DNA of 64,000 nucleotides from positions 62,001 through 126,000 of the forward strand of contig NZ_JANYGH010000079.1 in assembly GCF_025362475.1 (NCBI RefSeq). The letters run 5' to 3'. Under the pieces are notes generated by a model. It made no database searches and had not been told where the DNA came from. It was given only the letters and a program-made list of their open reading frames with translations. A program made the position numbers and the translations under genes. How positions within the stretch are numbered: the stretch's first letter is position 1; each line of letters starts with the position of its first letter. Shown here one piece after another: positions 36,996-42,743 of the stretch. Source of the stretch: Mucilaginibacter sp. Its GTDB lineage: Bacteria > Bacteroidota > Bacteroidia > Sphingobacteriales > Sphingobacteriaceae.

Positions 36996-37790
36996 TTATA
37001 ACCCCGAATAATAATCATAACCCTGCTCGGCCCAGTAATCACGCGGGCGCTTATCGCTAAAGGAGATACTGCCCAAGCGTTTCAGGTTTTTGATGCCATA
37101 TTTTACAGGAATTATAAGCCGTAAGGGCGCGCCGTGCTTTGGCTGCAAGGGCTTTTCGTTCATCTCATAGGCCAGCATTGTTTGTGGGTGCATGGCGCTG
37201 GGCATATCAATACCAACATAGTATTCTTTATCGGGCGTTTCCATACCCACATATTCCAGCCGGGTTTGATCATCCAGTTTAAAATGAGTGATAAAATCGC
37301 TGAATTTTACACCTCCCCAATGCGAGATCTGGTCCCAGCCCTCCACGCATTTAAAATCATAAATGATATCTGTTTTGGGCAAGGCCTTAATATCATCCAG
37401 GCTAATGTTCAATACCTCGCCAGATTGCTTTTTTACCTGGAGTTTCCATGCCGCTATATCTATCTTTCCCTCCGATCCTACGTCACTGTTATGGCGTACA
37501 TTTTTGGCAGCCATTTCCTTAGGATACGTTTTTACAAGATGATTATTGCTGAAAAAAGTACGGAAGGCCAGTTCGGTTTTGTTTAACGCCCTGCGTAAAG
37601 GTTTGCGGGCCCCTGCGGTTATGCCTGCAGCTTCTTCGGGCGAGTTATACAGCCATTTCCAGCCACCATAAGCCACGCCGGATGCTACAAAAAATGTACC
37701 GAACGAAATAAAATTACGCCTCGTGATCTTTTGCTCAACCGTAAGCGGCTTTTTAGGGCCTTTATTTTTTTTACTGAATAGGTTTTTCAT
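36996..37790 (-). CDS. MsrP/YedY-like periplasmic molybdoenzyme
   Basis: A 264-residue sulfite-oxidase-fold molybdopterin oxidoreductase. It has the Tat signal TRRNFISFGTFFVASG and the molybdenum-ligand cysteine in DFKCVEGWDQISHWGG, the CVEGW motif shared with MsrP. The PLRLIIPVKYGIKNLKRLGS segment and the WAEQGYDYYSGL ending also fit. MsrP repairs methionine sulfoxide in periplasmic proteins. The ORF-track start lies 15 codons inside the cytochrome gene, so I choose MKNLFSKKN, leaving a 20-base overlap. The cytochrome b561 just upstream is its likely electron donor, in the place of MsrQ. Confidence 0.85.
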   Translation of the reverse strand: MKNLFSKKNKGPKKPLTVEQKITRRNFISFGTFFVASGVAYGGWKWLYNSPEEAAGITAGARKPLRRALNKTELAFRTFFSNNHLVKTYPKEMAAKNVRHNSDVGSEGKIDIAAWKLQVKKQSGEVLNISLDDIKALPKTDIIYDFKCVEGWDQISHWGGVKFSDFITHFKLDDQTRLEYVGMETPDKEYYVGIDMPSAMHPQTMLAYEMNEKPLQPKHGAPLRLIIPVKYGIKNLKRLGSISFSDKRPRDYWAEQGYDYYSGL

Positions 37791-38481
37791 CGGTTGGGGT
37801 TGGGGTTTCAATAACGGGTTGAGGATCGGGTTCATTTACCACTTCAAATCCGGATATAACTGATCTGAAATTATTCCAGCCGGCAAGTACTACCTGTACT
37901 ATGTGTATCAAAAAGAAAAACACATAGCCTATAGTGAGCGCGAAATGCAGGATGCGTGCAAAATGATAACCGCCACATATCCATGTTAAATAATAAAACT
38001 GAACCGGTTTATAAATGGCAAGGCCGGTTATTAATGAGCCAATGCCCATCACTATAATTGCAGTGTATGCAATGCGCTGGGCGGCGTTATATTTATTTTG
38101 AGGCGGCGCCATTTTTCTGATGTGCAGGTCATGCAGCAACACCAGCCACGCCTCTTTAAATGATTTTTTTTGCGGAACAAGCTCCCGCCACTCGCCAGAT
38201 ATTATGGTGTACAGTATATATACCAGCCCATTAATGGCAAAGGCCCACATAAACAAAAAATGAAAGGCCATACCTTCTGCCAGGCGGTGGGGTATGTTAA
38301 AGGTTTTATAAAACCACTCCGGGAAAAACATAAAATAGGTATGCCCGAACAGCTTTATTTTATACTCGTCATTAGCCCAGTAAATTAACATTCCACTCCA
38401 TATCATAATGGTGAGTATCGGGAAGTTTACCCAATGCGTCCACCGCATGGCTAAAGGGTGTTTTTCTTTTATTACTTTCAT
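37771..38481 (-). CDS. Cytochrome b561-like electron donor to the molybdoenzyme
   Basis: A 236-residue integral membrane cytochrome of the b561/Ni-hydrogenase b type, with four helices near residues 16-35, 67-90, 135-155 and 180-205. Haem-ligand histidines are plausible in RWTHWVNFP, AFHFLFMWAF and the ARILHFALTIGYVFFFLIHI stretch. The molybdoenzyme gene overlaps its 3' end, so the pair should form one redox unit moving quinol electrons to the periplasm. It follows DUF1223 on the same strand with a hairpin between, so co-transcription from the ECF promoter is possible but not certain. Confidence 0.85.
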   Translation of the reverse strand: MKVIKEKHPLAMRWTHWVNFPILTIMIWSGMLIYWANDEYKIKLFGHTYFMFFPEWFYKTFNIPHRLAEGMAFHFLFMWAFAINGLVYILYTIISGEWRELVPQKKSFKEAWLVLLHDLHIRKMAPPQNKYNAAQRIAYTAIIVMGIGSLITGLAIYKPVQFYYLTWICGGYHFARILHFALTIGYVFFFLIHIVQVVLAGWNNFRSVISGFEVVNEPDPQPVIETPTPTDEKPIQ

Positions 38482-38510
38482 TTAAAAAGTGGTTTTGGCT
38501 TGCAAAAATA

Positions 38511-38542
38511 CCTGTAACCGGTTAAACTTAACCAGGTACAGG
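38511..38542 (-). terminator. Hairpin between DUF1223 and cytochrome genes
   Basis: CCTGTA pairs with TACAGG and inner GGTTAA with TTAACC. There is no long T tract, so it could be an attenuating hairpin rather than a full terminator. Confidence 0.4.
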
Positions 38543-38573
38543 CTACATTAATATAAAACAAACAACAACCATA

Positions 38574-39371
38574 TTATTTACTGGTGCCATTACTATCAAA
38601 TGCTGTTTTGGCCGCGGCCAAAATAGTGCCGTTGTCCGCGTTTTGCACAAAGCCGATTACTTCATAACCCTGGGTGCTAAATCCCTGGGGCAGGGCAATA
38701 ATGGCGTTACCCTTACCATCGGCATTTATTGGCTGGCTTTGTATATTGCGCACAATTTGTACATGTGATAGTGTTTTGCCACCATTTTCACCGCGCTGCA
38801 CTTTGGTTTGCGCGGCCTTTTGCACAAGGGCCAACAGCAGGGTAGCATTCTTTTCTGTTCCTTCGCTATGGTATTGTACAGTAACATGGTCCTTATCTCT
38901 TTGAGCATTAAGGGTTAGTTTACCCGCAGCATTTGTACGTAAGCCGACTGTAATAGCATTGCGTAAATTACCTTCTTCCGAACCTACGAACTCTTTTTTT
39001 CCGTTAACTACAATCTGCGGTGTATAAACCGATTGCAGGTGTAGCCAGCTGGCATATTTGTTTTGTCTCTTTGAATAATCGGCGTTGCTAAAAACATCTT
39101 TCCACCCCAGGCGGTTCCAGTAATCAACATGATAGGCAAGTATGTAAACCGGTTTATCGCTATCCTCTTTCTGGATGCGTGCAACCAGTTCATCAGCAGC
39201 CGGGCAACTTGAACAACCCTCTGAGGTGAACAACTCTATGACAGCAAAACCGTTACTGACAGTTTTAACTTCACTGTTTTTATTAAGGCTTTTATGATTT
39301 ATAAAAGCCGATGATACCAAAACTGCAATGGCAAGGCTGGCAGTAAGGGCAAATATTTTAATTGATCTCAT
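38574..39371 (-). CDS. DUF1223 exported thioredoxin-fold protein
   Basis: A 265-residue exported DUF1223 protein. After a signal peptide (IFALTASLAIAVLVSSAF) it has VIELFTSEGCSSCPAADEL, whose CSSC is the thioredoxin-like redox pair typical of the family. The YHVDYWNRLGWKDVF and QSVYTPQIVVNGKKEFVGS segments complete the signature. Its biochemical role is not established. It lies divergently from the ECF sigma gene and has an inverted copy of the same promoter motif 30 bases before its ATG. This places it in that regulon, together with downstream cytochrome and molybdoenzyme genes if read-through occurs. Confidence 0.9.
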   Translation of the reverse strand: MRSIKIFALTASLAIAVLVSSAFINHKSLNKNSEVKTVSNGFAVIELFTSEGCSSCPAADELVARIQKEDSDKPVYILAYHVDYWNRLGWKDVFSNADYSKRQNKYASWLHLQSVYTPQIVVNGKKEFVGSEEGNLRNAITVGLRTNAAGKLTLNAQRDKDHVTVQYHSEGTEKNATLLLALVQKAAQTKVQRGENGGKTLSHVQIVRNIQSQPINADGKGNAIIALPQGFSTQGYEVIGFVQNADNGTILAAAKTAFDSNGTSK

Positions 39372-39401
39372 ATTTTAATAATCTATGTACGTTTTAACGG
39401 C

Positions 39402-39431
39402 TTAGTCGGCTTGCATTAAATAACCTTACAA
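39402..39431 (-). promoter_or_regulatory. ECF promoter of DUF1223 (copy B)
   Basis: On the minus strand TTGTAAGG (39424-39431), 15 bases, then CGACTAA (39402-39408). The arrangement and spacing are identical to copies at 39564 and 40495. It lies 30 bases before the DUF1223 ATG. Confidence 0.85.
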
Positions 39432-39563
39432 TAAATTTATTTTTTTTTGCGAGGGGACGGCAATTCGGCGGGATAACTGTTTTAATAAATTATAACCAAT
39501 AGGATATATGTAAATTTAGCATAATTCTATTTGTTTTTTCGCCACAAAAAAATCTGCATTTTA

Positions 39564-39593
39564 TTGTAAGGATTTGCCAATGTTAGCGACTAA
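39564..39593 (+). promoter_or_regulatory. ECF promoter of the sigma factor operon (copy A)
   Basis: TTGTAAGG, a 15-base spacer, then CGACTAA, 33 bases before the sigma ATG. With copy B it forms a divergent pair in a 255-base gap, as expected for an autoregulated ECF factor. Confidence 0.85.
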
Positions 39594-39626
39594 TGGAATT
39601 AAAACACACTATGAACATACCATTCA

Positions 39627-40199
39627 ATGGCTACTGAAAATCAATTATTAGATCCACGGCATTGGGTTAAGGCGCATGCAGATTACCTGTACGGTTACGC
39701 GCTGCCACGCTTAAATGATGAAGAACAGGCTAAAGACCTAGTGCAGGAAACATTTTTAGCGGCCCTTGAAAGAAAAGATAAGTTTGAAGGAAAAAGCTCC
39801 GAACGTACCTGGCTCACCGCTATCCTTAAAAACAAAATAATTGATGTGTACCGCAAAAAATCATCGGGCCTAAAAATGGCCGACGTTAAAGAGGCCGAAG
39901 AAGAGCAGCAGGATTTTTTTGATGCTGATAACGGGCATTGGAACAAAGCTCATTATCCCCAGCCTTTTGGTATTGAAGATCATGACCCATTGACCGGTAA
40001 GGAGTTTAACCAGATACTTCAAAAGTGCCTTCAAAAACTGCCGGCTTTATGGATGGCTGTTTTTACAATGAAGCACATTGATGATGCGGCTACAGATATC
40101 ATCTGCAACGATCTGAAGGTTACACAGGCCAACTTTTGGGTAATTATACACCGGGCCAAATTAAACCTGAGGGCATGTCTTCAAAGGAACTGGATTTAA
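39627..40199 (+). CDS. ECF-type RNA polymerase sigma factor
   Basis: A 190-residue ECF sigma factor. Region 2 spans about residues 15-80 (DYLYGYALPRLNDEEQAKDL then VQETFLAALERKDKF, RTWLTAILKNKIIDVYRKK). Region 4 spans about 125-185 (LQKCLQKLPALWMAVFTMKH and VTQANFWVIIHRAKLNLRAC). No signal or membrane segment is present. The gene is followed ten bases later by a zinc-type anti-sigma factor. Matching promoter motifs stand before itself, DUF1223 and the Met-rich gene, implying autoregulation. The inducing stress is inferred to be oxidative. Confidence 0.93.
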   Translation: MATENQLLDPRHWVKAHADYLYGYALPRLNDEEQAKDLVQETFLAALERKDKFEGKSSERTWLTAILKNKIIDVYRKKSSGLKMADVKEAEEEQQDFFDADNGHWNKAHYPQPFGIEDHDPLTGKEFNQILQKCLQKLPALWMAVFTMKHIDDAATDIICNDLKVTQANFWVIIHRAKLNLRACLQRNWI

Positions 40200-40209
40200 A
40201 GAAATTTAT

Positions 40210-40488
40210 ATGAGCCCACTAAAAAACATCATTTACAACTGCAGGCAAGCTACTTTTTTGATAGAGAAAAAACAGCTCCAAAAATTAGGGTTTCGCGAAA
40301 CTATAGAGTTGAGGATACACCTTGCAGGTTGTTCAATATGTATATTATATAACCAGCAAAGCCGCATTATCCACGAAATGGTAAAGCAGCTTTTTCTCGA
40401 TTCTATGAAAACATCGGGCACAAGGCTTGATGACGACTTTAAACAGGAATTACAGGAACGCATAGATGCCGAGTTAAATAAAAAATAA
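40210..40488 (+). CDS. Soluble zinc-type anti-sigma factor
   Basis: A 92-residue protein with the zinc-associated anti-sigma (ZAS/zf-HC2-like) pattern: the N-terminal CRQATFLIEKKQ and then HLAGCSIC, an H-x3-C-x2-C motif. No membrane helix is present, unlike most anti-sigma factors, so it acts in the cytoplasm. Redox-active zinc cysteines could themselves sense oxidants by losing the zinc. It directly follows the sigma gene, which supports the assignment. Confidence 0.82.
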   Translation: MSPLKNIIYNCRQATFLIEKKQLQKLGFRETIELRIHLAGCSICILYNQQSRIIHEMVKQLFLDSMKTSGTRLDDDFKQELQERIDAELNKK

Positions 40489-40494
40489 AATACT

Positions 40495-40524
40495 TTGTAA
40501 GGCTTATCCAAACCGCCCGACTAA
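40495..40524 (+). promoter_or_regulatory. ECF promoter of the Met-rich gene (copy C)
   Basis: TTGTAAGG, a 15-base spacer and CGACTAA, 26 bases before the ATG at 40551. Motif and spacer length are the same as in copies A and B. Confidence 0.85.
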
Positions 40525-40550
40525 GGTTGAAATGTTAATATAAAACCAAC

Positions 40551-40835
40551 ATGAAAACTAAAAATCAAAGTATGAAAACAATTATTTCAGGCGCATTGGC
40601 AGCAACCGTACTTGCTGTTTGTTTAACTCTTAACGTACAGGCTAAATCTCTATCTCCTGTTTTATCAAACGGATCAACTACAGCAATGAGCGATACCGGC
40701 AAAATGGCTAAAGATAAAATGAAGATGGCCAAAATGGAAAAGAAAAAAATGGCCAAAATGGACAATGATAAGATGAAGATGGATAAGAAGATGGACAAAA
40801 AGAAAATGACTAAGGATACTGCAAGTAAAATGTAG
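40551..40835 (+). CDS. Secreted Lys/Met-rich protein, MrpX-like
   Basis: A 94-residue exported protein of low complexity. A signal peptide (IISGALAATVLAVCLTLNVQA) is followed by a short Ser/Thr-rich stretch and then about 49 residues made mainly of Lys, Met, Asp and Ala. This tail has 12 methionines and about 18 lysines, in short units such as KMKMAKMEKKKMAKM. No globular domain is seen. It resembles by composition the periplasmic Met-rich scavenger MrpX, which absorbs hypochlorite and is repaired by an MsrP enzyme. Metal (copper) binding is the main alternative. It has its own ECF promoter. The start could also be the ATG at 40572. Confidence 0.8.
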   Translation: MKTKNQSMKTIISGALAATVLAVCLTLNVQAKSLSPVLSNGSTTAMSDTGKMAKDKMKMAKMEKKKMAKMDNDKMKMDKKMDKKKMTKDTASKM

Positions 40836-40860
40836 GTTGTTTTTGTTTTTTGATCGTTGG

Positions 40861-40887
40861 AGGGAGGTGATGCTCCCTCTTTTTTTT
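40861..40887 (+). terminator. Terminator after the Met-rich gene
   Basis: AGGGAG and CTCCCT arms with a six-base loop are followed by eight T residues. It precedes the peroxiredoxin gene by 25 bases, so read-through would be needed for co-expression. Confidence 0.8.
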
Positions 40888-40911
40888 AATTCCAATTTTT
40901 AAACAACTCAA

Positions 40912-41490
40912 ATGAAAAAGTATTTATTTATTATGATGCTGGCTTTTGCCGGCCTGCAGCTTTCGGCGCAAACCGGGCTTAAAAAAGGTGATGATGCTCC
41001 GACTTTTAGCGCGATAGATAATTCAGGCAAATCAGTCGACCTGAAAACATTACTAAAAGCCCACAAATCGGTGGCGCTGTTTTTTTACAGGGGCGAGTGG
41101 TGCCCTTATTGCAATAAGCATATCCAACAGTTACAGGATTCACTGCAGCTGCTTAGCGCAAAAGGGGCTTACGTAATTGCTGTAACACCCGAAACCAAAG
41201 AGAACATTAGCAAAACCATTCAAAAAACCCGCGCATCGTTTTCTATTGTTCAGGATAAAGGATACAGCATCATGAAGGATTATAAAGTTAACTATACTTT
41301 GGACGATGCCACAGTTGAAAAATACAAAAGCTTTGGCCTCGATCTTAATAAAAGCAACGGCAATACCGATCATGTACTACCCGTACCAGCAACTTATGTT
41401 ATTAATCAATCGGGCAAGATCGCTTTCGTGCACTTTAATAAGGATTATACCAGGCGTGCATCTGTAAATGATATCATGCAGGAGCTTTAA
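40912..41490 (+). CDS. Exported AhpC/TSA-type peroxiredoxin
   Basis: A 192-residue redoxin with a signal peptide (YLFIMMLAFAGLQLSAQ). The thioredoxin-like domain carries FYRGEWCPYCNKHIQQLQDS, with a CPYC pair at the redox site, and later VKSFG-like KSFGLDLNKSN and VPATYVINQSGKIAF segments. The family reduces peroxides or exchanges thiols and disulfides. It follows the Met-rich gene after a terminator-like hairpin and is followed by its own terminator. Its position in the ECF island suggests an envelope oxidant-defence role, which is inference. Confidence 0.88.
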   Translation: MKKYLFIMMLAFAGLQLSAQTGLKKGDDAPTFSAIDNSGKSVDLKTLLKAHKSVALFFYRGEWCPYCNKHIQQLQDSLQLLSAKGAYVIAVTPETKENISKTIQKTRASFSIVQDKGYSIMKDYKVNYTLDDATVEKYKSFGLDLNKSNGNTDHVLPVPATYVINQSGKIAFVHFNKDYTRRASVNDIMQEL

Positions 41491-41530
41491 TAGTATTATA
41501 CCCCTAAATAATGGCAAGTAATTGCAACAG

Positions 41531-41558
41531 ATCAGGTTCATTTGGGCCTGATTTTTTT
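41531..41558 (+). terminator. Terminator of the peroxiredoxin gene
   Basis: ATCAGG and CCTGAT arms with a ten-base loop are followed by a T run, 40 bases after the stop. Confidence 0.8.
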
Positions 41559-41597
41559 GTGCTGTTTTGAAGCGGGCTTGCTATATTTACCATTACT

Positions 41598-42107
41598 ATG
41601 AAAAAGCTGTTATTACTTGTTTTGCTGTATAGCACTGCTGCCTTTGCACAGGAAAAATTGAACCCCACTCAAAAGTTCAGCATTACAGGGCAGGTAACAA
41701 AAGAGTCGGTGATTACTATTGATTCTATTTTGCAGTATAAAGTACATGACATTGGCGAAATGAACGTCACCAACCACCTTGGTGAGTTTAAACATAAGGA
41801 CGATCAATTAAAAGGTGTTCTGCTGAAAGATATTTTAAGCCATACCACGTTTAAAACCGCCAGCCCCAAATTGTTGAGCCAGTTTTATTTTGTTTGCCAG
41901 GGTGCTGATGGCTACAAAGTAGTTTACTCATGGAACGAATTATTCAATACCGAAGTAGGCAACCATGTTTTTATCCTTACGGAGAAAAATGGAGTCAAAG
42001 CTGATAAAATGCCCGAAAGCCTGCAAATGAGTTCGGCTGCTGATTTTAAAACCGGTCGCAGGTATTTGCACAACCTGGATAAAATAATTGTAAAACAGGC
42101 CGAATAG
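41598..42107 (+). CDS. Exported protein with a reduced molybdopterin-oxidoreductase fold
   Basis: A 169-residue exported protein (signal peptide MKKLLLLVLLYSTAAFAQ). The pattern FSITGQVTKESVITIDSILQ, then LKGVLLKDILS, YKVVYSWNELFN and the C-terminal GRRYLHNLDKIIV matches small proteins assigned to the sulfite-oxidase-type molybdopterin-binding domain. The molybdenum-ligand CVEGW cysteine motif is absent. The only mature-region cysteine, in FYFVCQGADG, is in a different place, so catalysis is doubtful. A candidate promoter (TATATTTA at 41582) precedes it, and alkA-like follows after six bases. Confidence 0.65.
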   Translation: MKKLLLLVLLYSTAAFAQEKLNPTQKFSITGQVTKESVITIDSILQYKVHDIGEMNVTNHLGEFKHKDDQLKGVLLKDILSHTTFKTASPKLLSQFYFVCQGADGYKVVYSWNELFNTEVGNHVFILTEKNGVKADKMPESLQMSSAADFKTGRRYLHNLDKIIVKQAE

Positions 42108-42113
42108 GTTACC

Positions 42114-42743
42114 ATGTTTAAACAGTTTAACCACGCCAATTACCACGCCATTTGCGATGAGCTTGCCTTAGCTGATGCCGATTTGGCTGTAATTATCAAT
42201 ACCTATGGCTATCCACCGCTATGGTCAAGGCCAAACACGTTCGAAACCCTGGTGCACATCATCCTGGAGCAACAGGTATCGCTGGCGTCAGCACTATCCG
42301 CATTAAATAAACTACGGGAGCGGGTTCAGGAAATAACCCCGGCCAGGGTATTGTTATTAACCGACGAAGAGTTTAAAGCCTGTTATTTCAGTCGACAAAA
42401 AACCACCTATACCAAATATTTAGCAGAGGCTATGATCAACGGGCAAATCAACCTCCAAGAACTGGAGCAACTGCCTGATGAAATTGTTCGGGCCAAACTT
42501 ATTGCCCTCAAAGGCATCGGCAACTGGACGGCCGACGTGTATTTGATGTTTGTATTACAGCATGCCGATATTTTCCCCATCGGTGATCTGGCAGCGGTAA
42601 ATGCTTTGAAAAGAGTAAAATTGCTACCCAAAGATATTTCAAAACAAGAAATGATTGCGATAACCGAACAATGGGCGCCTTATAAAACTATCGCAAGTAT
42701 GCTGTTATGGCATTGGTATTTATCGGCACCGAGGAATAGCTAA
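42114..42743 (+). CDS. HhH-GPD DNA-3-methyladenine glycosylase, AlkA-like
   Basis: A 209-residue DNA glycosylase of the helix-hairpin-helix GPD superfamily, closest to the AlkA/3-methyladenine group. Conserved segments are ETLVHIILEQQVSLASALSA, the hairpin LKGIGNWTADVYLMFVLQHA and the following FPIGDLAAVNAL with the catalytic aspartate. It lacks the iron-sulfur cysteines of the EndoIII/MutY branch. It removes alkylated purines in base-excision repair. It starts six bases after the preceding stop, so is probably co-transcribed with the molybdopterin-like gene. Confidence 0.9.
   Translation: MFKQFNHANYHAICDELALADADLAVIINTYGYPPLWSRPNTFETLVHIILEQQVSLASALSALNKLRERVQEITPARVLLLTDEEFKACYFSRQKTTYTKYLAEAMINGQINLQELEQLPDEIVRAKLIALKGIGNWTADVYLMFVLQHADIFPIGDLAAVNALKRVKLLPKDISKQEMIAITEQWAPYKTIASMLLWHWYLSAPRNS

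Follow-up and report, generated by a model that had tools for sequence, protein, structure and literature searches.

A promoter-defined ECF sigma factor island in Mucilaginibacter linked to exported methionine sulfoxide reductases

A group of genes centred on an extracytoplasmic function (ECF) sigma factor occupies positions 36996-42107 of a 64,000-nucleotide stretch of the 6.45-Mb genome of a soil bacterium, Mucilaginibacter sp.; the whole stretch is referred to below as the window. The island contains three outward-reading units: a sigma/anti-sigma pair, a gene for a methionine-rich protein followed by one for a thioredoxin-like protein, and a leftward operon encoding a DUF1223 protein, a cytochrome b561 and a YedY-like molybdoenzyme. 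All three units are preceded by the promoter TTGTAAGG-N15-CGACTAA, which, exactly or nearly so, also lies before genes for exported methionine sulfoxide reductases, MsrA and MsrB, in this genome and in many related species. Because this promoter independently ties the island to MsrA and MsrB, methionine sulfoxide emerges as the theme of the putative regulon.

The ECF sigma factor gene (39627-40199, plus strand; NCBIfam TIGR02943, 166.8 bits over a cut-off of 162.2) is followed after 10 nt by the gene for a soluble zinc-type anti-sigma factor (ZAS; 40210-40488, plus strand), as the original prediction proposed. The 92-amino-acid anti-sigma factor matches NF052368 below that profile's cut-off (E = 1e-10) and has no Pfam match; its sequence, when read, contains no hydrophobic segment, in line with the soluble character claimed for it. 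Cys11 and a His37-x3-Cys41-x2-Cys44 cluster are conserved in 25 homologues, and RsrA carries Cys and His residues at identical positions and spacing (PMC2893595). By residue spacing, solubility and gene position, the protein qualifies as an RsrA/MseR-type ZAS, with zinc binding and redox control predicted. According to the same paper, the corresponding Cys residues of MseR matter, and the sigma factor it controls governs msrA/msrB; in Haemophilus, msrAB is under the control of RpoE2/HrsE, and exposure to hypochlorous acid (HOCl) and H2O2 raises rpoE2 expression (PMC7907618). Given the RsrA-type residues and these parallels, redox-triggered release of the sigma factor is the likeliest mode of control.

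The leftward operon is headed by a gene for an exported DUF1223 protein with a thioredoxin fold and a CSSC motif (38574-39371, minus strand; PF06764, E = 2.5e-59), followed by genes for a cytochrome b561 (37771-38481, minus strand; PF01292) and, overlapping the latter, a 279-amino-acid YedY-like molybdoenzyme (36996-37835, minus strand; PF00174, E = 7e-32). Family profile searches thus place all three where the original prediction had put them. The DUF1223 protein has 2axo as its best PDB match, and its C53 and C56 are invariant. The molybdoenzyme begins with a twin-arginine N-terminus (RRNFISFG) and contains a molybdenum-ligand region (FKCVEGW) and an MHP motif; R39, R40, C163, H216 and P217 are invariant in an alignment of 12 homologues, and TatC is encoded in the genome, as are further PF00174 proteins. 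The proposed label of MsrP/YedY-like holds for the CVE-W and MHP motifs and for the top PDB match in a profile search, E. coli YedY/MsrP (1xdq, E = 8e-20, with sulfite oxidases behind at 3e-10), but the enzyme misses the MsrP cut-off and fits a smaller "YedY-like" group. Its membrane partner is a PF01292 b561 and not the MsrQ/YedZ type (ferric reductase family) that goes with MsrP. The published description of YedY-like group 1B gives a molybdenum domain of ~30 kDa, a cytochrome that differs from the group 1A partner and no assigned function (PMC7759655); by length and partner the island enzyme and its b561 fit this description, against which, and not against group 1B sequences, they were compared. 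The b561 is the probable electron partner, passing electrons from quinol to the YedY-like enzyme.

The second rightward unit opens with a gene for an exported Met/Lys-rich low-complexity protein resembling MXKDX/MrpX proteins by composition and comparison of loci (40551-40835, plus strand). In agreement with the secreted Met-rich protein originally predicted, it has the highest Met content among window open reading frames of at least 60 amino acids, and its predicted mature part of 63 amino acids contains 12 Met, 19 Lys and no Cys. Across loci the Met-rich repeats look alike by eye. Downstream lies a gene for an exported AhpC/TSA-family protein with a WCPYC (CxxC) site (40912-41490, plus strand), which can be called peroxiredoxin-like or thioredoxin-like. 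The original prediction of an exported peroxiredoxin was right about family and export; since the site is of the CxxC type and the nearest relatives of solved structure are thiol-disulfide oxidoreductases of the ResA type, the thioredoxin-like label is equally apt. A terminator-like hairpin, recognized by consensus match only, lies between the two genes (40859-40880, plus strand) and may attenuate read-through. A second such hairpin lies 3' of the AhpC/TSA-family gene (41529-41554), and together the two could set expression of the Met-rich gene high and that of its neighbor low.

The promoter was spotted by eye and then searched for as the bipartite pattern GTAAGG-N15-CGACTA. Within the island it occurs 31 nt before the DUF1223 start (39403-39429, minus strand), 34 nt before the sigma factor start (39566-39592, plus strand) and 27 nt before the Met-rich gene (40497-40523, plus strand). 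The sigma factor gene is accordingly placed to be autoregulated from the site at 39566-39592, as far as sequence can tell. Only five exact copies exist in the genome, three of them those of the island. A fourth precedes an exported MsrB gene by 34 nt, and a copy with one mismatch precedes an exported MsrA gene by 22 nt. The fifth exact copy (C44:15650-15676, minus strand) falls inside the coding part of birA, with DsbD-like genes downstream, and forms the codons for V-R-x-x-Y-L-x-R-L. At the same codons, roughly half of the relatives that carry the sigma factor have an exact or near-exact site, as does the sigma-less genome G014, and dsbD was dropped as a candidate regulon member because of the position within birA and the near copy in G014; the site is either an accident of the coding sequence or a promoter kept by selection inside a gene. 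Genome-wide, near matches to the promoter pattern number 12, below the 45 of a reversed control pattern, so the case for the promoter rests on position and conservation and not on count.

Conservation was assessed in the 80 best loci from a GTDB scan with a YedY alignment, which come mainly from Mucilaginibacter with a few from Pedobacter and Chitinophaga. Allowing at most one mismatch and a 15-nt spacer, the promoter precedes the sigma factor gene in 47 of 51 cases, the DUF1223 gene in 51 of 61 and the Met-rich gene in 39 of 40. Internal genes and other spacers served as negative controls: in the same loci the promoter precedes YedY in 0 of 79 cases, b561 in 1 of 78 and the anti-sigma factor gene in 0 of 50, and spacers of 13, 14, 16 and 17 nt gave one match among sigma factor genes and none before the other genes. 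All of the relatives' sites have a T directly before GTAAGG, and 131 of 137 have an A after CGACTA. The exact motif was compared across 31 genomes and is absent from 5 sigma-less congeners and from 12 genomes of other families.

Exported msrA and msrB genes were found independently by protein search, and their upstream regions were placed by tblastn positions. The promoter lies before one or both genes in 13 of 18 sigma-bearing versus 0 of 5 sigma-less congeners (Fisher p 0.007). Upstream of msrA and msrB, 19 sites were observed where the genomic rate would predict 0.012, and the opposite strand yielded none in 47 regions. Where genes of the island have moved, the promoter has moved with them: a relocated Met-rich gene in G013 retains it 27 nt upstream, and a remote DUF1223 gene in G009 retains it 25 nt upstream. 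This retention suggests that the regulon, and not merely the cluster, is under selection.

Several relatives extend the picture. In G001 (C38:200000-213500), an alternative island architecture contains two related sigma factor genes, at least one of them followed by a ZAS gene, and eight exact promoter copies, among them copies ahead of DoxX-type genes and ahead of an operon in which a WCPYC gene is followed by a DsbD-type fusion. In G013 (C1:5482161-5484376), a paralogous sigma/ZAS pair adjoins a further pair of msrA and msrB genes, so that a sigma factor and Msr enzymes are linked there too. In G017 and G013, a gene resembling those for TonB-dependent receptors starts ~30 nt after an exact promoter and may also belong to the regulon.

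Dozens of Mucilaginibacter species carry the island, which also occurs in Pedobacter. Scattering of the genes in relatives was named at the outset as an observation that would speak against a functional unit; instead, the divergent arrangement recurs in both genera, and the conserved gene order and promoter indicate that the gene set is more than chance. Among the 60 of the 80 loci that span at least 14 kb, b561 adjoins YedY in all 60, DUF1223 is present in 51, the sigma and anti-sigma factor genes in 43, the Met-rich gene in 34 and the peroxiredoxin-like gene in 27, counts that describe a non-random sample because the loci were picked by YedY similarity. YedY itself occurs in 6 of 149 genomes spread over the class, so the island is lineage-restricted. 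Three distant Bacteroidia genomes have DUF1223-b561-YedY with no sigma factor genes within 15 kb, which indicates that the trio can stand alone; some Mucilaginibacter loci also have it without the sigma factor genes. In many Mucilaginibacter loci, genes for a ModABC molybdate transporter adjoin the island, often next to the gene described next; none was found in the 64-kb window.

That gene (41598-42107, plus strand) lies within the range covered by the original prediction, which left it unnamed. Its secreted product is modeled by AlphaFold (predicted local distance difference test score, pLDDT, 76) with a sulfite oxidase (SUOX) fold, and alignment indicates that it lacks a conserved molybdenum-ligand Cys. 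Foldseek matches of moderate confidence include sulfite oxidases, MsrP (1xdy) and PruR (7kom); comparison with the YedY profile gave no match and a PDB sequence search only chance matches, so that the protein is placed by fold comparison alone. PruR of Agrobacterium and Vibrio is a secreted, pterin-binding protein of ~170 amino acids with a SUOX-type fold and no molybdenum-ligand Cys (PMC13259868). The modeled protein agrees with this description in fold, length, secretion and missing Cys and may likewise bind a pterin. It differs from PruR in sitting within a putative oxidant-defense island, with no dcpA gene seen adjoining. A gene for an HhH-GPD DNA glycosylase (42114-42743) starts 6 nt past it, and this order is kept in G020; the short gap and shared order suggest that the two may be co-transcribed.

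In its overall design the island resembles the ECF16 systems SigF/NrsF-MrpX-YedYZ of Azospira and BcrS/AbcS-BcrXQP of Brucella, in which an ECF sigma factor governs a molybdoenzyme of the YedY type together with an exported, Met-rich protein of the MXKDX kind, and which respond to HOCl (PMC8315932). The original comparison with SigF/NrsF-MrpX is apt in this respect, since the Met-rich protein behind the same promoter in G013 passes TIGR02953 (50.2 bits over a cut-off of 41), the repeat type of Brucella BcrX, an MrpX homologue (PMC8315932). The promoters are likewise of the GTAA...CG type, as in GTAAC-N14-15-CG of B. japonicum EcfF (PMC3420878). Unlike the ECF16 systems, however, the island has a TIGR02943-type sigma factor, a soluble ZAS instead of a six-helix DUF1109/NrsF protein and a b561 in place of YedZ/MsrQ, and it adds DUF1223, a CxxC thioredoxin-like protein, a SUOX-fold protein and often ModABC. 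Because its anti-sigma factor is of another class and its cytochrome of another type, the island falls outside ECF16 although it would work like it.

The parallel to SigF/NrsF first noted stands, but in kind the island's sigma factor and its soluble partner are nearer to the RsrA, MseR and HrsE systems than was implied. Neisseria sigma-E/MseR and Haemophilus RpoE2/HrsE share with the island a small cytoplasmic anti-sigma factor, with a ZAS motif in MseR, and exported MsrA/MsrB under sigma control; their regulons, in the available text of PMC2893595 and PMC7907618, are built around msrAB and a DoxX cluster, with no Met-rich sink or YedY-b561 described there. E. coli MsrPQ (YedYZ) also consists of a Tat-exported molybdoenzyme with a YedY fold and a membrane heme partner, but the island enzyme is shorter, belongs to another subgroup, has a b561-type partner and is under ECF and not two-component control.

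These features suggest a mechanism. A thiol-reactive oxidant would oxidize the Cys/Zn cluster of the anti-sigma factor, as its RsrA-type residues lead one to expect, and free the ECF sigma factor. The sigma factor would then transcribe from the promoters seen in the sequence, namely those of its own operon, of the Met-rich gene (from which transcription would run on into its thioredoxin-like neighbor), of DUF1223-b561-YedY and of the distant exported msrA and msrB genes. The exported Met/Lys-rich protein could act as a sacrificial oxidant sink, while MsrA, MsrB and the YedY-like enzyme, the last with quinol electrons delivered through b561, would reduce methionine sulfoxide. The CxxC proteins (DUF1223 and thioredoxin-like) may supply or buffer thiols, and the molybdate uptake genes near the island in many relatives would serve the molybdoenzyme. 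We consider it likely, with good confidence, that the island forms the core of a regulon under sigma factor control whose products shield envelope proteins from oxidation of methionine (and of thiols) and repair the damage.

Other functions were weighed. Met-rich periplasmic proteins can bind Cu(I), so the island might be a module for metal stress, for example by copper, with the Met-rich protein as a chelator of Cu(I) and the thiol proteins dealing with disulfides that the metal induces. Caulobacter SigF, the ECF16 prototype, does take part in a heavy-metal response (PMC3511200); the regulon sites here nevertheless point to msrA, msrB and YedY and not to metal efflux or oxidase genes, and the Met-rich protein is Cys-free and Lys-rich like MXKDX proteins, which makes a metal function unlikely. 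A role of the island in sulfur stress, with YedY-b561 acting like a sulfite dehydrogenase, is quite improbable, too. YedY is a member of the sulfite oxidase superfamily (PF00174), and the DoxX genes under the promoter in G001 recall the Neisseria and Haemophilus sigma regulons (PMC7907618), but the profile search favors E. coli YedY/MsrP over sulfite oxidases, the CVEGW and MHP motifs are those of MsrP, enzymes of group 1 are regarded as reductases (PMC7759655) and msrA/msrB lie behind the same promoter. Finally, the loci in which DUF1223-b561-YedY occurs without a sigma factor would fit a unit of sigma/anti-sigma and Met-rich genes alone, with the trio a separate respiratory module nearby. 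This appears very improbable, given that the DUF1223 operon has the promoter in most loci and even when relocated, and that in Chitinophaga the Met-rich and thioredoxin-like genes directly adjoin b561-YedY with no sigma factor gene there.

Several observations weigh against the proposed regulon. In N. meningitidis, where MseR has the same residue spacing, sigma-E activity was unresponsive to peroxide, diamide and singlet oxygen (PMC2893595), which makes the inducer uncertain. The YedY-like enzyme scores 90 bits against the NCBIfam MsrP equivalog, far under the cut-off of 207, so its substrate may differ from that of MsrP. The Met-rich protein of the window does not match TIGR02953 (pentapeptide MXKDX repeat) and could bind metal. 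Several species with the island lack the promoter ahead of msrA or msrB, the statistics overstate independence because the compared genomes are related, and the function proposed here is a prediction from sequence. The methionine-oxidation regulon remains the reading that we favor. More tentatively, and with somewhat less than even confidence, the b561-linked YedY-like (group 1B) enzyme and DUF1223 may constitute a second kind of respiratory methionine sulfoxide reductase, a functional counterpart of MsrPQ that was assembled separately in Bacteroidota and is controlled through a soluble, redox-sensing anti-sigma factor, with the PruR-like protein adding a pterin-linked function.

A literature search outside subscription journals and preprints found no published description of this gene set in Bacteroidota. 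The island appears to be a real, coherent regulon and a new version of the known ECF defenses based on Met-rich proteins and methionine sulfoxide reductases. It would join two known strategies in one regulon of free-living Bacteroidota: a Met-rich sink paired with YedY, as in SigF/MrpX, and control of MsrA/MsrB by an ECF sigma factor that answers to a ZAS, as with MseR and HrsE. The exact promoter makes this regulon directly testable, and the arrangement predicts a role in methionine sulfoxide repair for YedY-like/b561 enzymes and DUF1223 proteins.

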